64,000 nucleotides of DNA from Fibrobacter sp. (GTDB taxonomy: Bacteria > Fibrobacterota > Chitinivibrionia > Chitinivibrionales > Chitinispirillaceae). The stretch spans positions 1-64,000 of the forward strand of contig JAAZBG010000064.1 of NCBI GenBank assembly GCA_012513915.1. Reading direction: 5' to 3'. The position numbers and the translations under genes are program-made. The notes beneath the pieces are model-generated. The model was not told the DNA's origin, ran no database searches, and worked only from the letters and a program-made list of their open reading frames with translations. This document shows positions 37,505 to 45,317 of the stretch, in pieces; positions within the stretch are counted from its first letter, which is position 1; each line of letters starts with the position of its first letter.

Positions 37505-38332
37505 TTGAAATCGATTTTTGAATATCTTGATTACCGGACATATTTAAAAGACTTCTATGAGGAACGAAAAGGGCGACAGACTTTTTTTTCTTACAGATAT
37601 TTTGGAAATAAAATCGGTGTTGATGCAAGTTATTTGCTGAAAGTGATGCTTAAGTCACGTCATCTTTCGGATTCTGCAACTGATCGTGTCTGCCAGTTTT
37701 GCGGGCTTGATGTCAATGAACGGGAGTATTTCAAAACACTTGTTCACTTTGCAAAAGCCCGATCACAAAGTGAAAGCAAACTCATGTTTGAAAAGTTACT
37801 TGCATTACGATATGTAAAGAGCAGTACTCTTGTTGAAAAACAATATGAATATTTTCGTACCTGGTATCATCCGGTAGTACGATCAGTACTGGAATATTAT
37901 GATTTTAAAGGTGATTATGCGTTACTTGGTAAACAGCTTTCACCTCCGATCAGTGCAAAGGAAGCTGCTGCATCAGTGAAACTACTGGAGCAGCTTGAAC
38001 TGATAAAAAAGGATAATGATGGGCGGTATTGTCTGACAGAAAAAGCAGTTACAACCGGTGATGAATGGCGGAGCGCTGCAATTATAGCGTTTCAGGAACA
38101 GACGATCAGATTGTCAGTGGAATCAATTGACAGGCATGATCGTTCGCTTCGTGATATTTCCACCGTAACAATGAATATAACAGAAGCTGATTTTGAGGAA
38201 ATTTGTGATCGTATTACAGAGTTCAGACGTTCAATAATTTCATTTGTAAATGAAAACACTAACCCTGATCGTACCTATCAGCTCAACATTCAGTTCTTTC
38301 CTTTGACTGATGTGAAAGGAAAGACACAATGA
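37505..38332 (+). CDS. TIGR02147/DUF4423 family protein
   Basis: Protein of 275 residues of a family first recognised as a large paralogous group in Fibrobacter succinogenes. It opens M-K-S-I-F-E-Y-L-D-Y-R-T-Y-L-K-D-F-Y, the family signature. An N-terminal helix-turn-helix-like region (YFGNKIGVDASYLLKVMLKSRHLS) follows, then a middle domain and a C-terminal winged-helix-like part (AASVKLLEQLELIKKDNDGRYCLTEKA). A regulatory role is likely but unproven. The TTG start is set by GGAG. The stop overlaps the next gene (ATGA), coupling it to a DUF2341/LamG surface protein. Confidence 0.9.
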   Translation: MKSIFEYLDYRTYLKDFYEERKGRQTFFSYRYFGNKIGVDASYLLKVMLKSRHLSDSATDRVCQFCGLDVNEREYFKTLVHFAKARSQSESKLMFEKLLALRYVKSSTLVEKQYEYFRTWYHPVVRSVLEYYDFKGDYALLGKQLSPPISAKEAAASVKLLEQLELIKKDNDGRYCLTEKAVTTGDEWRSAAIIAFQEQTIRLSVESIDRHDRSLRDISTVTMNITEADFEEICDRITEFRRSIISFVNENTNPDRTYQLNIQFFPLTDVKGKTQ

Positions 38333-40008
38333 AGCAACAGGTGTTGAAAATTTCTATTGGTATCATGACAATGCTATCTTTATTGTCAATTGAGTGTACC
38401 ACGACCAATCTTGCCGGTGCAACCACAGAGACTACGAATGGTTTGACCGGTTGTATTCTGAACAGTGACAATACTCCTGCATCACATAGTATTGTCAAAC
38501 TGCTCCCCGTTGACTACAACCCTGTTTATGATAATTCAGAGTATCAATGTGATACAACCGACTCCAACGGTGTTTACAGTTTCAGGGGTGTTGATACCGG
38601 AAAATATTCGGTGATTGCCCGTAACACAAAAGAACTGACAAGCTGTCTGGTAAGGAATATTGAAATTGATCAGGATACCATACAAATGGCTCCTGAAGGA
38701 ATATTGAAAAAATCAGGTTCATTATCAGCATCATTTTCTTCTGAGAATGCTGTGGCGAACGGATATGTTTACATACCGGGAACGGATGTGTATTCCACTA
38801 CAGGAAGCGAAAGCACGGTATACCTGAGCGATATTCCCAGCGGGGAGTATGAGGAAGTAATTGCGGTTTTTAAAAACGGGCATGCAAATATTGCCCGGAA
38901 TCCGGTGGTCGTTAATGCCGGTGAGACCTCTACGGTTACATTCCCGCTGTGGAAATACAGTACTGATTTTATTCTTAACACGACGTCAAGTGGTGCTGAT
39001 GTTACAGGTAATGTTTATGACTTTCCTGTTCTTATCAGATTGAACGGTAACACGTTTGATTTTTCCGAGGCTCAACCGGATGGAAGTGATGTTGCCTTTA
39101 CCAATGCTTCCAATACAATGCTGCCTTATACCATTGAGCGCTGGGATGCTGAGAGGAAAGTCGCAGAAATCTGGGTTACTATTGATACTGTTTATGGAAA
39201 TAATCAGACACAGTCAATTTCCATGTACTGGGGAAATCCATCAGTACAATTCCAACAGTCGATGACGGTATTTGATACGGCAAACGGTTTTCAGGGTGTA
39301 TGGCATCTGGGTGACTCATCAAACAGTAAACTGGCTGATGCGACTGACAACGGGTATAACGGAATATCGCCGGATTCCGCCTCAGTGAAAATTGATGATG
39401 GTGTGATTGGGTTATGCAGATACTTTGATGGAAACGATTACATTACGATGCCGTCAACAGCACGGAGCCGTTTATCTTTTGATGAGGGTAGTTATTATAC
39501 GGTAAGTGCCTGGGTTCGGCTTGACGCGTTTGATAATGCATCACATTGCATCGTATCAAAAGGATTCGAGCAGTACTATTTACGGTCAACCTATATCTCA
39601 ACAAATTCAGCATCGCAGATACCACTTTGGGAATATGTTGAATTCAGTGAGACAATCAAATGGCAGTCATTAAACACGCCTGTAGCAGATAAAAACTGGA
39701 CGTTAATCACCGGTGTACGTAAGGGTACAGAGCAGAAGCTCTATTGCAATGGTGTCCTGGTTGACAGCACTGCTGATATCTGGATAAATACTGTTTCACG
39801 AAATACATCAAATGATCTTTACATTGGTCGTTTTGCTGCACCGGTACTATTACCGCTTATTGAAGGGCATTGTTATTTCAAAGGAGCTATAGACGAAGTC
39901 AGGATATTAAGCAAAGCACAGACACCTGAATGGATTAAATTAAGTTATATGAACCAAAGGTCTGATGACAAGCTGGTTATCAGGCGAGCAGACAGCACGA
40001 CAAAATAA
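38329..40008 (+). CDS. Secreted DUF2341 / LamG-domain protein
   Basis: Protein of 559 residues. A hydrophobic start ends L-S-I-E-C. The Glu before Cys is unusual for a lipobox, so lipoprotein status is doubtful. Residues 35-110 and 115-205 resemble carboxypeptidase-regulatory beta-sandwiches (DSNGVYSFRGVDTGKYSV). DUF2341 follows (FPVLIRLNGNTFDFSEAQPDGSDVAF ... ISMYWGNP), then a LamG/concanavalin-like domain (GVWHLGDSS ... YFDGNDYITMP ... FKGAIDEVRI). These are glycan or adhesion modules. It is coupled by ATGA to the TIGR02147 gene and ends before a strong terminator. Confidence 0.85.
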   Translation: MKQQVLKISIGIMTMLSLLSIECTTTNLAGATTETTNGLTGCILNSDNTPASHSIVKLLPVDYNPVYDNSEYQCDTTDSNGVYSFRGVDTGKYSVIARNTKELTSCLVRNIEIDQDTIQMAPEGILKKSGSLSASFSSENAVANGYVYIPGTDVYSTTGSESTVYLSDIPSGEYEEVIAVFKNGHANIARNPVVVNAGETSTVTFPLWKYSTDFILNTTSSGADVTGNVYDFPVLIRLNGNTFDFSEAQPDGSDVAFTNASNTMLPYTIERWDAERKVAEIWVTIDTVYGNNQTQSISMYWGNPSVQFQQSMTVFDTANGFQGVWHLGDSSNSKLADATDNGYNGISPDSASVKIDDGVIGLCRYFDGNDYITMPSTARSRLSFDEGSYYTVSAWVRLDAFDNASHCIVSKGFEQYYLRSTYISTNSASQIPLWEYVEFSETIKWQSLNTPVADKNWTLITGVRKGTEQKLYCNGVLVDSTADIWINTVSRNTSNDLYIGRFAAPVLLPLIEGHCYFKGAIDEVRILSKAQTPEWIKLSYMNQRSDDKLVIRRADSTTK

Positions 40009-40310: not shown

Positions 40311-41594
40311 ATGTTTCGTTTTAAAGGATTATCAATGAAATTTAAAGTATGGTTTCTTTTATTTATTGTCGTATCTGTCAATGGGCAGGACGTCGTGGAT
40401 ACTACCGGTTCTGTTCTAAATGCACAAAATGTTGATTCTTTGGAAAGTACTTCGATTATACCGAATATACCAATTGCACCGGACACTTTGCAGGCTGTTC
40501 AAACGCAGGCCGTTGAAACACAAGTCCAGTCTGCAGAGACACAAGCCATTGAAACACAGACACGGACTGCTGAAGCACAGACAGTATTTCAATTAAAGAC
40601 TATCACTAAAATTCAAAGGAAAAATACAATCGTTGGAGCAACGGTGAAGGATATCGATAATGATAAGAAAAATGAAATTATCCTGATTACCCGGCGGTCT
40701 GTTGAAGTTGCACGGTTTGTAAATAAAACGTTACAGACAGTATCCGAATTCAAGACTCCATCAGGAGTGTCACTTGTAAGTATTGATGTTGCCGATATTA
40801 ATGAAAATGGTGCTTATGAGTTCTATATCTCTGCGGTAAATGCAACATTTGAAATATATCAGTCAATGATTCTTGAGTACAATAAAGGTCAATTTTCAGT
40901 AGTGAAAAAACGTTGCGGGTACCAATTCAGAGTTCTGAATGAACCTGATGGTAGCAGCACATTATTAGGCCAGAAGTATTCATCAAATGGGGTCCAGAAA
41001 GGAGATGTTTTTGTATTAGGACTTAATGGTGGTGAACTTGTGGAAAAGAATAAGATTGATATTTCTGACAGAGCGGTGCATACCTTTACAAGTCCCTGCG
41101 ATCACTCGGACAATTCATCCGTCTATGCGATGTCTGCCCCTGATGGTCTGATTGAATTAATTGACAAACAAAGCGGCAGTAAAATTGCCGAGTCTGCGGA
41201 AAAGTTCGGTGGAAGTCCGTTTGCTATAAAATTGCCAGCACATACTATGTCAAATCCGGCGATGTCAACGCTTCCGATTAGAAATGTCTCATCCGATGTA
41301 AATAATGATGGCGTTGATGAACTTGTTTGTGTAAAAAACCATGATTCTTTCCGTAGTATAATGGCATCAACAAGCCTTTATAAGCAGGCGCATTTCGAAG
41401 TTCTTTCGTTCGACAGGAATGAAGGCTTTGTAGAATCTATCTGGAAATCAGGTGTTTACAGCGGTTTTATCATTGATATCGCTGCTGGTGATATTAATGG
41501 TAACGGCAAGAACAATGTTATTGTGATAAAACTTGATAATGTGGGAAACAACATGTTTAAAAAGGCAAAAACCGAAATTATTGTTTTTGAATAA
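40311..41594 (+). CDS. Secreted FG-GAP/VCBS-repeat-like protein
   Basis: Protein of 427 residues with a signal peptide (core about 12-24). An early stretch near 62-92 repeats T-Q-A and E-T-Q units (V-Q-T-Q-A-V-E-T-Q-V-Q-S-A-E-T-Q and on). The mature part has at least four FG-GAP-like loops with D-x-N-x-D or similar: VKDIDNDKKNEIILI, VADINENGAYEFYIS, SSDVNNDGVDELVCV and AAGDINGNGKNNVIVI. These suggest a beta-propeller with calcium sites, as in integrin-like surface proteins. Ligand unknown. GAGG lies six bases before the ATG. It stands alone after the terminator at 40081. Confidence 0.8.
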   Translation: MFRFKGLSMKFKVWFLLFIVVSVNGQDVVDTTGSVLNAQNVDSLESTSIIPNIPIAPDTLQAVQTQAVETQVQSAETQAIETQTRTAEAQTVFQLKTITKIQRKNTIVGATVKDIDNDKKNEIILITRRSVEVARFVNKTLQTVSEFKTPSGVSLVSIDVADINENGAYEFYISAVNATFEIYQSMILEYNKGQFSVVKKRCGYQFRVLNEPDGSSTLLGQKYSSNGVQKGDVFVLGLNGGELVEKNKIDISDRAVHTFTSPCDHSDNSSVYAMSAPDGLIELIDKQSGSKIAESAEKFGGSPFAIKLPAHTMSNPAMSTLPIRNVSSDVNNDGVDELVCVKNHDSFRSIMASTSLYKQAHFEVLSFDRNEGFVESIWKSGVYSGFIIDIAAGDINGNGKNNVIVIKLDNVGNNMFKKAKTEIIVFE

Positions 41595-41685: not shown

Positions 41686-41803
41686 GTCCAGACCTGCGTC
41701 CTTTTATATTCCATACATTATATGAAAACGGCAAAAACTATATTTTACAGGTTTTAGGTTTCATGCCGGCAACAAACAGCCGTGCAACAGCATTTTAAAC
41801 AGC

Positions 41804-41809
41804 AGGAAG
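41804..41809 (+). promoter_or_regulatory. Shine-Dalgarno selecting the lepA GTG start
   Basis: AGGAAG ends five bases before the GTG at 41815. It supports that start over the GTG at 41782, which would add an 11-residue Gln-rich leader. Confidence 0.65.
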
Positions 41810-41814
41810 TAGTT

Positions 41815-43611
41815 GTGACAACAGAATTTATCAGAAATTTTTGTATTATTGCGCATATTGATCATGGAAAATCAACACTTGCGGATCGATTTCTCGAGAT
41901 TACCGGAACTGTCAGTAAAGAGAGAATGCAGGAACAGGTTCTGGACGATATGGATCTTGAGCGCGAACGCGGCATTACGATCAAGTCGCATCCAATCAGG
42001 ATGATGTATAAGTCGAACAGTGGTCAGGAATATCAGTTCAACCTTATTGATACTCCGGGGCATGTTGATTTTTCATATGAGGTATCACGCTCTCTTGCTG
42101 CATGTGAGGGGGCTATTCTTGTTGTTGATGCAAGTCAGGGTATTGAGGCGCAAACTTTGACAAATATCTATCTTGCTCTTGAGAATGATCTAGCAATCAT
42201 ACCGGTACTGAATAAAATAGATCTTCCATCCGCACATCCCGATGAAGTCCGGCGTCAGGTAGCGGAACTCCTTGGTATTGATCCGTCAACTATTCTGGGA
42301 TGCAGTGCAAAAACCGGTGAGGGTGTTGCGCCAATACTTGAACGAGTGATTGAACAGATTCCTGCACCCAAAAATTGTATAGACAAACCGTTAAAAACAC
42401 TTGTTTTTGATTCCAAATTTGATTCATTCAGAGGTGCTGTTGCCTATGTTCGTGTTTTCGAAGGGCAGCTCAAGCGGGGTGATCAGATTAAGTTTTTCTC
42501 AACAGGGCGGGAATATGACGTTGATGAAATCGGCTATTTTAAGATGGGACGTGTGCCGTCAAAAACGCTTATTAATGGGGAAGTGGGATATGTAATTGCA
42601 AATGTTCGTACCGTTTCGGATATTAAAACAGGTGATACGATAACAACACGTCTCAATGGTGCTGCGGAACCTGTTGAGGGATACCGTGAGATCAAGCCGA
42701 TGGTTTTCAGCGGATTGTATCCTGTTGACAAGGCTGATTATGAAAATTTACGTAGCGCGCTCGAAAAACTCAAACTTAATGATTCTTCAATTACCTGGGA
42801 ACCTGAGACTTCAGCAGCTCTTGGTTTTGGTTTTCGTGCGGGTTTTCTTGGTCTTCTTCATATGGAAATTGTTCAGGAACGTCTTGATAGAGAGTTTAAT
42901 GTAGATATTATCACTACTGTTCCGAACGTAAAGTATAAAATATTGCTTAAAAATGGTGATGAGGTTTTTATTGAAAGTCCTGCTCAGATGCCATCAATGC
43001 AGGAAATTGAGGGCATAAATGAGCCGCTTGCCAAATTGCAGATTATTACACCAACCGATTTTACTGGTGTAATAATGAAGTTGTGCGAAGAAAAAAGAGC
43101 CCGGCTTGCCGGCATGGAATATCTTGAACCAACCCGTGTCTGCCTGCACTATACAATCCCGTTGCAGGAGATGATAATTGATTTCTTTGATAGATTGAAA
43201 AGCTGTTCAAAAGGGTATGCATCCATGGACTATGAGTTCCAGGGGTTTCAGCGTGAGACTCTTGTTAAAATGGATATTCTGATCAATGGTGATCCGGTTG
43301 ATGCATTTTCAACAATTGTCCATCGTGACAAGGCGTATCAGTTCGGTCTTGACATTACATCAAAGCTTAAGGAACTGATACCCCGTCAGCAGTTTGAAGT
43401 TGCCATACAGGCTGCTATTGGTTCTAAGATCGTAGCACGTACTACGGTTAAAGCGTATCGTAAGGATGTTACATCAAAATGTTATGGCGGTGATATCTCC
43501 CGTAAACGTAAACTGCTTGAAAAACAAAAAGAGGGCAAGAAACGGATGAAACAGATTGGCTGCGTTGAGGTGCCTCAGGAAGCATTTCTAGCAGTGTTAA
43601 GCAGGGAGTAG
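41815..43611 (+). CDS. lepA: Elongation factor 4 (LepA)
   Basis: Ribosome-bound GTPase that acts on translation under stress. Motifs are G1 [10 protein letters not shown]2 region RERGITIK, G3 DTPGH, G4 NKID and G5-like S-A-K. The LepA C-terminal domain ([26 protein letters not shown]) is intact. With the GTG start at 41815 the protein has 598 residues, the normal size. It is followed after seven bases by the lepB-like gene, the same order as lepA-lepB in E. coli. Confidence 0.97.
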
Positions 43612-43618
43612 TGTCTTG

Positions 43619-44560
43619 ATGGAGGAGACTGACAAGCTTGCGTATGATTCGCGTATAATCCTCTATAAAATGATACGGCAGCTTGTACTCATTGTGCTGG
43701 TTGCGCTGCTGATAAAATCATGCCTCGTTGATAGTATTGCAATCAGGGGCAATCAGATGGCTCCGACACTGTTGAATGGTGATCAGACACTTGTCAATAA
43801 ATTCACCAGTTTACCATTCGTGCGTAATGTGTTTGCATCATCAATTGGAAAGCCGGTCATCTTCTATAATGCTATTAACCGTAAAGAACGGTTTTGTATG
43901 CGTGTCGCGGGTATTGCCGGAGATACCATCGCAATTGACAGTGGTATTGTCTATAATTCAAAAACCGGTATTGTTACACTCAGGGGCCGTGAAAAAACAT
44001 CTGTTGTATTACCTGCAAATTTTTCTTCCCGCGATTTCTACGGTGAATACCGGATTCCATCCAGAGGAGATGTTTTATATCTTGATTCGCTGACACTTCG
44101 CGATTTCTTTTCTGCGGTTTCAGTGATCCGTCAGGAAAATACAAAATCCCGAATAACTATCGATCAGGATCTTTATATTGATGATACCTTGTCAAATGAT
44201 TATTTTATTAAAGAATTTTCTCTTTACAAAGGTACACTTGATACATTACCATCAGAGTATGATTTTAACTGGTTTTTCTGGGATCGTCTTGCTCAATATA
44301 TAAATGTAACAGCAGAGGACTATTCTGTAGAAATCCGTTTTACGGTGAACATTGACAGTGTTCCTGTTAGTAAATATGTTGTAAAAGAGGATTATGTGTT
44401 TATGCTTACTGATAACTGGAGCGACGGGCTTGACTCCCGTTATACCGGTCCTGTAATGCGTAAAACGATAATCGGGAATGTGTTTTTTATAATCTGGTCA
44501 AGTAACGTGGCTGAAGGTGGAGGAGTGAATTTCAAACGAATCGGCCGTATTATACGTTAA
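43619..44560 (+). CDS. Signal peptidase I homologue lacking the catalytic Ser and Lys
   Basis: Protein of 313 residues with one membrane helix (about 17-36) and the S26 fold boxes. Box B reads I-R-G-N-Q-M-A-P-T-L, where active enzymes have S-M-x-P-T-L: Gln46 replaces the nucleophile (codon CAG). Box D reads F-C-M-R-V-A-G-I-A-G-D, where the general-base Lys precedes Arg: Met94 replaces Lys (codon ATG). Box E is recognisable (M-L-T-D-N-W-S-D-G-L-D-S-R-Y). The frame is intact and position after lepA matches classical lepB. It is probably a non-catalytic paralogue with a binding role; a working leader peptidase should be elsewhere. An ATG at 43619 is preferred to TTG at 43616. Confidence 0.85.
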   Translation: MEETDKLAYDSRIILYKMIRQLVLIVLVALLIKSCLVDSIAIRGNQMAPTLLNGDQTLVNKFTSLPFVRNVFASSIGKPVIFYNAINRKERFCMRVAGIAGDTIAIDSGIVYNSKTGIVTLRGREKTSVVLPANFSSRDFYGEYRIPSRGDVLYLDSLTLRDFFSAVSVIRQENTKSRITIDQDLYIDDTLSNDYFIKEFSLYKGTLDTLPSEYDFNWFFWDRLAQYINVTAEDYSVEIRFTVNIDSVPVSKYVVKEDYVFMLTDNWSDGLDSRYTGPVMRKTIIGNVFFIIWSSNVAEGGGVNFKRIGRIIR

Positions 44561-44570
44561 AGGGGGACAG

Positions 44571-45317
44571 ATGATTACCGAAAAACTGGATCTTGCATTT
44601 GTTGCAGCCCGTCTCGAGGGGTTTGAGGAAACGATTATTACCCGGCTGATTGACAGGGCTCAGTTCTGTGCTAATGAGATAGTTTATAAAAATGGGCTTA
44701 GTGGTTTTAAAGGTGAGAATCAGCTCTCCCTGTTTACTATCCGACTGACTCAGCAGGAACAGATGGATGCACGGTTCGGACGTTTCTGTGTACCAGAAGA
44801 ACGTCCGTTTACTAAAGATCTGCCTGTTCCACAGCGTATCGTTTCTCTTTCTGATACTGGATTGAAAATCATCAACTGTAATGTAATCAGTCAGGTTAAT
44901 GATATTTTGTCAAGCTATCTTGATCTTATTCCCAGGATATGTTCAAAAGAGGATGATGGCCAATATGGTTCAAGCGTTGAACATGATGTTTATGCAATTC
45001 AGGCCATTGCACGAAGAATACATTATGGTTCGTTATATGTAGCAGAATGTAAATACATGAATACGCCTGATGAATACCGCATGTTGATAAAAGAGAAAAA
45101 TACAGAAGCGCTTGTTGAATTGTTGACAAGAAAAGATGTTGAAGATAAAATTATTATCAGGATCCGCGAGAAAGCTGCATCTGTACAGGCATGTGTCAAT
45201 AAGCTCGTTCGAAAAGTAATTGATCCTGAGCAGATTGCAAATTACTATAGAGACTGGATTATCCCACTCACCAAAAAAGGTGAAATCGCCTATCTTCTTA
45301 ACAGATTGAATGTTTGA
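44571..45317 (+). CDS. Chorismate mutase, eukaryotic-type AroQ
   Basis: Protein of 248 residues like yeast Aro7 and plant chorismate mutases, which rearrange chorismate to prephenate for Phe and Tyr. Matching parts are F-E-E-T-I-I-T-R-L-I-D-R-A-Q-F, ARRIHYGSLYVAECKYMNTP (Arg and Lys of the active site), the V-E-D-K-I-I-I-R helix and I-P-L-T-K-K-G-E-I-A-Y-L-L-N-R-L (catalytic Glu). The Arg equal to yeast Arg16 is not in register: the chain reads V-A-A-R-L-E, placing Arg two positions late. AGGGGG precedes the ATG. It sits two bases before tyrA, the next step. Confidence 0.85.
   Translation: MITEKLDLAFVAARLEGFEETIITRLIDRAQFCANEIVYKNGLSGFKGENQLSLFTIRLTQQEQMDARFGRFCVPEERPFTKDLPVPQRIVSLSDTGLKIINCNVISQVNDILSSYLDLIPRICSKEDDGQYGSSVEHDVYAIQAIARRIHYGSLYVAECKYMNTPDEYRMLIKEKNTEALVELLTRKDVEDKIIIRIREKAASVQACVNKLVRKVIDPEQIANYYRDWIIPLTKKGEIAYLLNRLNV

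Follow-up and report, generated by a model that had tools for sequence, protein, structure and literature searches.

The gene that directly follows lepA in the window (the whole stretch of 64,000 nucleotides of Fibrobacter sp. DNA that was analysed) encodes a protein with the predicted fold of signal peptidase I (SPase I) in which both residues of the catalytic dyad are replaced. Comparison with its orthologues indicates that this pseudo-SPase is maintained by purifying selection, next to a canonical LepB that is encoded elsewhere in the same genome.

The lepA-linked gene and its catalytic site

The open reading frame (ORF) starts with ATG, is of full length (313 aa) and contains zero internal stops. 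Its product matched the S26 family profile PF10502 of Pfam with 78 bits (curated cut-off 22.9) and the NCBIfam model TIGR02227 ("signal peptidase I") with 83 bits (cut-off 47). The features of the locus are:

41782..43611, + strand: lepA (EF4), upstream neighbour, ending 7 bp before the S26 ORF; linkage conserved in relatives
43619..44560, + strand: lepA-linked pseudo-signal-peptidase I (S26 fold, 313 aa), assigned from the ORF, alignments, PF10502, TIGR02227 and the AlphaFold2 model
43649..43726, + strand: N-terminal helix, residues 11-36, predicted membrane anchor (helix in the model; hydrophobic stretch with Arg/Lys N-terminal to it)
43754..43756, + strand: Gln46 codon (CAG), nucleophile position, aligned with Ser90 of E. 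coli LepB
43898..43900, + strand: Met94 codon (ATG), general-base position of box D, aligned with Lys145 of E. coli LepB
44009..44323, + strand: cap region (domain II-like), residues 131-235, with NWFFWDRL at 217-224; assigned from conservation, as many of the invariant residues that do not belong to boxes B, D or E fall here
44408..44449, + strand: degenerate box E, residues 264-277 (TDNWSDGLDSRYTG), with Gly272 changed to Thr, Ser278 changed to Gly, and DSR kept
44571..45317, + strand: plant/yeast-type chorismate mutase, downstream neighbour (TIGR01802, 176.5 bits against a cut-off of 170.9)

An AlphaFold2 model built from 26 orthologues (pLDDT 85.1, pTM 0.79) consists of the helix at residues 11-36, followed by a beta core and a mixed cap. 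Foldseek comparison with the PDB returned E. coli SPase I as the best match (3iiq, E 3e-9), followed by SpsB of S. aureus and SipA of S. pyogenes, and SipA was also among the PDB matches obtained by sequence profile (6e-11). The TM-scores to E. coli SPase were modest overall (0.42-0.51 normalised to the target, the superposition being loose), perhaps because domain placement differs, and the fit to the SipA core was better (TM-score 0.68 normalised to SipA, rmsd 4.3). The model is regarded as a confident S26-fold model.

The catalytic positions were located by alignment with LepB of E. coli K-12, read from the genome record of that strain, in which lepB likewise comes after lepA. The earlier note had described an intact S26-fold protein at the lepA-lepB position with Gln46 for the nucleophilic Ser and Met94 for the box D Lys, and both the codons and the alignment bear this out; its statement that box E is kept holds for the DSR motif and the final G, but not for Gly272, the Arg after DN, and Ser278, which are replaced by Thr264, Trp267 and Gly270, respectively. 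In active enzymes, two box E residues, Gly272 and Ser278, leave space for the general-base Lys and set its orientation; Sec11-type enzymes use His as general base in place of Lys. The window protein lacks the box B Ser, the box D Lys (or His) and the Gly272/Ser278 pair that define an active SPase I (S26A), and combines the attributes of pseudo-signal-peptidases of the SipA/SpsA kind, i.e., the SPase I fold, replacement of both dyad residues, and the presence of an active paralogue.

This paralogue was identified by running the family model over the genome, which yielded two S26 proteins, the window protein and a canonical LepB of 391 aa. The latter is encoded on contig C232 (L001:1360-2535), adjoins pfkA, is unlinked to lepA, and contains the motifs PTGSMENSL, YIKRC and GDNRDNSLDSR. 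Because the estimated contamination of the assembly is 8%, the origin of C232 was checked. Its GC content is 0.407 compared to 0.411 for the window, its tetranucleotide distance of 0.300 falls inside the window's own range (maximum 0.336), and G002 is the sister genome of both LepB and the pseudo-SPase in the tree; on these three grounds, the idea that the active LepB stems from contamination was rejected.

Downstream of the pseudo-SPase, the chorismate mutase gene (no Pfam match at E 0.1) is followed by tyrA, an aroA-like gene and nadK. In several of the relatives examined, trpB separates the pseudo-SPase from the chorismate mutase, and it is absent between them in the window. A functional link to the chorismate mutase was rejected: the mutase is retained in genomes that lack the pseudo-SPase, and trpB intervenes in relatives, so that only an operon neighbourhood is indicated, and the mutase and the tyrA, aroA-like and nadK genes are considered to lie outside the pseudo-SPase function. 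Upstream of lepA, the window encodes large predicted surface or secreted proteins, a laminin-G/DUF2341 protein (38329-40008) and an FG-GAP repeat protein (40311-41594).

Orthologues in the order and across Fibrobacterota

Among 60 relatives examined, orthologues with 30-45% identity were found across the family and order, and in most of them lepA lies directly upstream; the close matches among named relatives were Chitinispirillaceae, Chitinivibrionales, and metagenome-assembled genomes named 'Fibrobacter sp.' or 'Fibrobacteres'. Residues were counted in 28 orthologues of the same order (Fibrobacterota, Chitinispirillales-like), with 20 aligned canonical LepB paralogues as the comparison set. 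The nucleophile position is occupied by Gln in 27 orthologues and by Leu in one, and the Lys position by Leu in 26, Met in one and Tyr in one, with zero Lys. At the Ser278 position Gly (21) or Ala (7) is found, and the Gly272 position contains Ala (18), Gly (7), Ser (2) or Thr (1), and is thus non-Gly in 21/28. Ser, Lys, Gly272 and Ser278 are all invariant in 20/20 canonical paralogues.

With Gln in 27/28 orthologues and Lys in none, the substitution pattern is far beyond chance, and the counts at the four positions imply a joint change of every known element of the catalytic site. As the Lys position is Leu in 26/28, Met94 represents a variant of a Leu-dominated position, and the Gln46/Met94 pair is, as judged from these alignments, an instance of a Gln/Leu signature that extends through the order. 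The question raised in the earlier note of whether relatives share the Gln and Met replacements therefore has a divided answer, the Gln being common and the Met confined to a single sequence. That note had also considered that the Ser/Lys pair might lie elsewhere in register, or that the window protein might be the sole SPase I of the genome; neither was found, as the orthologues of the order contain no other invariant nucleophile/base pair at the site, and the LepB on C232 carries both residues. Its expectation that the protein should be inactive as SPase I agrees with the absence of the dyad from every orthologue of the order and with the separate canonical LepB. Because the catalytic-site elements are gone in the orthologues and an active paralogue is present, we strongly infer that the protein performs no proteolysis at all.

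That the protein is a protease which uses other residues in a novel catalytic arrangement is barely credible. In favour of it, Gln46 is strongly conserved and Asp55, Arg95, Ser136, Asp139 and Arg161 are invariant polar residues, but near the site there is no invariant Ser, Cys or Thr accompanied by Lys or His. Moreover, Ser136 is located in the cap and E. coli LepB also has Ser at the matching place, and the substitutions at the same locus vary by lineage (Gln, Gly, Val, Ala, deletion).

The lepA-linked copies in other Fibrobacterota also lack the full dyad, with other replacements at the Ser and Lys positions. Outside Fibrobacteraceae, three other families have Val/Leu (G041), Gly with the Lys kept (G043) and Ala/Gly (G158). 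A second S26 protein is present in 58/61 Fibrobacteraceae genomes, and in this family all 42 distinct lepA-linked genes that were read encode Arg at the Lys position; the nucleophile position is Ser in 36 of them, Ala in 5 and Thr in 1. Box E in these genes is reduced to DSR and, in most, two Cys; in most of the sequences concerned (L113, L150-L179) the Cys pair replaces the GDN..S part of box E (C-x-K-x-x-x-C-x-DSRE), and could possibly form a disulfide across the dead active site. In ten genomes of genus g34 (Fibrobacteraceae; L189-L193, L195-L199), box B is short by approximately 10 residues, including the nucleophile, and the C-terminal DSR motif is kept; lepA was not found within the stretch read in these ten genomes. 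A 279-aa S26 protein of another Fibrobacterota family (L117, G166:C249, 2934-3773, minus strand), with lepA not seen nearby, has Gly at the nucleophile position and retains Lys and the full GDNR..S..DSR box E; on its sequence, it is perhaps a separate pseudo-SPase.

In a maximum-likelihood tree that included E. coli LepB, a branch with support 100/96 splits 48 lepA-linked sequences from 31 canonical Fibrobacterota LepB sequences and the E. coli protein. The window protein, encoded directly after lepA and placed apart from canonical LepB, is one of these lepA-linked Fibrobacterota S26 paralogues. Position and tree suggest that the lepA-linked copies are orthologous across Fibrobacterota, although long branches among these proteins make their deeper branching order uncertain. 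If they are orthologous, the dyad must have decayed in parallel, at least twice, unless residues were regained, because Ser survives without Lys in Fibrobacteraceae, and Lys without Ser in G043.

Selection, conservation and proposed function

Pairwise dN/dS of the pseudo-SPase was 0.15-0.30 in the order of the window and 0.07-0.16 in Fibrobacteraceae, compared to 0.05-0.10 for two canonical LepB pairs, with several dS values close to saturation. Given values of 0.07-0.30, the pseudo-SPase appears to be constrained by purifying selection rather than decaying, and together with the intact frame this upholds the earlier claim that the gene is unbroken though its dyad is lost. Loss of the gene does occur: no S26 gene follows lepA in G003, G005, G029, G034, G037 and families f11, f12 and f14, and in G005 the next gene after lepA is trpB, which in relatives comes after the pseudo-SPase. 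The pseudo-SPase is therefore dispensable in some lineages, where LepB functions in its absence. In G038, a strongly diverged S26 remnant that lacks the QM and DNW motifs (L050, G038:C86, 2246-3118, minus strand) adjoins the chorismate mutase gene and is no longer beside lepA.

Clean loss in several lineages, evolution faster than that of LepB and the G038 remnant are what would be expected of a decaying duplicate that is retained only for want of time, but we consider this very improbable, as orthologue frames are intact across many genera with dN/dS well below 1, Gln and Leu are near-invariant at the dead sites, the cap is conserved, and a second S26 protein persists in nearly all Fibrobacteraceae genomes.

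The distribution of constraint differs between the two S26 proteins of the genome, which have a homologous core and cap in common: LepB has all catalytic residues, has no lepA link, and is core- rather than cap-conserved. Mean column conservation in boxes B, C, D and E is 0.94, 0.87, 0.85 and 0.91 in the catalytic paralogue and 0.59, 0.54, 0.63 and 0.72 in the pseudo-SPase. In the cap, conservation is 0.61 versus 0.64 in LepB for residues 131-175, and for residues 201-235 it is higher in the pseudo-SPase (0.57) than in LepB (0.41), though the pseudo-SPase otherwise evolves faster. Residues that are invariant in the orthologues include Ser136, Asp139, Pro147, Arg161, Phe200, Gly205, Pro211, Phe220 and Trp221. 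These values are suggestive of a shift of conservation towards the cap, which may be the present working surface, and are not proof because the cap alignment of the paralogues contains length differences.

Since relatives in the phylum keep a non-cutting copy beside a cutting one, this copy probably has a different, non-enzymatic job at the membrane. The reading that we prefer, and hold to be moderately probable, is that the window protein is a membrane-anchored pseudoenzyme that acts by binding, as an accessory factor without catalysis in protein export or LepB processing. The intact gene, the loss of four catalytic elements, the separate LepB, purifying selection, the lepA position, the cap shift and the fold model count for this role, and loss of the gene in several lineages and a peptide groove that is less conserved than in LepB count against it. 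Mechanistically, a lepA-linked SPase I paralogue would have lost catalysis and retained the fold, a single membrane anchor and a periplasm-facing domain; it would sit in the inner membrane beside the translocon, where the cap, perhaps together with remains of the peptide groove, would bind a partner, and this binding would tune or direct precursor processing. We infer the periplasmic topology and the action by binding; fold, membrane anchor and precedent point by analogy to the export/LepB accessory role, and conservation points to the cap as the partner interface. The partner could be the active LepB, part of the translocon or some of the exported precursors; here both partner and pathway are guesses. 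A link to the type IX secretion system (T9SS) was considered and dropped, as the translocon protein SprA/Sov (TIGR04189) is present in 61/61 genomes regardless of the pseudo-SPase, and there is consequently no co-variation.

Two other binding roles were weighed against the accessory role; the earlier note had already suggested that the protein may bind signal peptides without cutting them, or regulate secretion. As a dominant-negative or titrating regulator, the protein would bind signal peptides and delay their cleavage by LepB, for which the LepB-like fold, the membrane anchor, and the partial retention of M, P and hydrophobic groove positions would be suitable; nevertheless, this is quite improbable, as the groove strand and the oxyanion-hole Ser position are more variable than in LepB, and no linkage to regulatory genes is seen. 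Unlikely as well is a substrate-specific assembly chaperone, in which the old peptide groove holds one class of surface proteins or pilins and presents it to another enzyme. SipA of S. pyogenes, a non-catalytic SPase I homologue with Asp and Gly at the dyad that is needed for pilus polymerisation, offers a precedent with the same fold, Ser and Lys gone, and Gly272 and Ser278 changed (PMC4049620), and it is among the PDB matches by profile and by fold given above. However, relatives show no linkage of the gene to pilus, sortase or surface-protein genes, as it is flanked there by lepA, trpB and aromatic amino-acid genes, and genus g34 has lost the box B strand yet kept the DSR motif, so that the groove is not needed in that genus.

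The accessory role can be extended to the phylum, in a form that we put forward tentatively and regard as rather doubtful: most of this diderm phylum would have a two-protein signal peptidase system, composed of a catalytic LepB and, encoded after lepA, a conserved S26 partner that lacks catalysis and acts via its cap, and the dyad would have disappeared on several independent occasions, catalysis having already given way to the partner role.

Significance and comparison with known systems

In diderm bacteria, signal peptidase I is generally viewed as a catalytic protein that acts alone. A phylum-wide non-catalytic lineage, maintained by selection at the classic lepA-lepB position beside the active enzyme, suggests that a subunit or adaptor without catalysis can be dedicated to signal-peptide processing in bacteria. 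The finding also carries a warning for annotation, as the window protein passes the TIGR02227 cut-off and cannot be a signal peptidase I as this enzyme is understood; a lepA-lepB pair is therefore no proof of an active SPase. No description of a lepA-linked Fibrobacterota pseudo-SPase was found in the literature searched, a search whose scope excluded most subscription journals, and this diderm, phylum-wide lineage appears to be undescribed, pseudo-SPases being already known in Firmicutes (SipA, SpsA).

E. coli LepB has in common with the window protein the fold (best PDB matches) and the position after lepA, but is catalytic, whereas the window protein lacks the equivalents of Ser90, Lys145, Gly272 and Ser278. 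SpsA of S. aureus is an inactive SPase I homologue that lacks two catalytic residues and is dispensable beside the active SpsB (PMC12445088). By this description, SpsA resembles the window protein as an inactive-type homologue next to an active enzyme; SpsA differs in being a Firmicute paralogue for which lepA linkage is not known. SipA (PDB 4n31, 4k8w) shares the S26/SPase I fold, the replaced catalytic Ser and Lys, and the changed equivalents of Gly272 and Ser278 (PMC4049620). It differs in its Asp/Gly dyad, small cap and Gram-positive pilus context from the window protein, which has Gln with Leu/Met, a large cap, a lepA link and a diderm host phylum. By locus, with lepA and aromatic amino-acid genes as neighbours and no sortase or pilin linkage, the pseudo-SPase is not a SipA orthologue. 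Compared to the known pseudo-SPases, it is distinguished by its occurrence in a diderm phylum, its lepA position, large cap and Gln/Leu signature, and by a phylum-wide spread with parallel decay.
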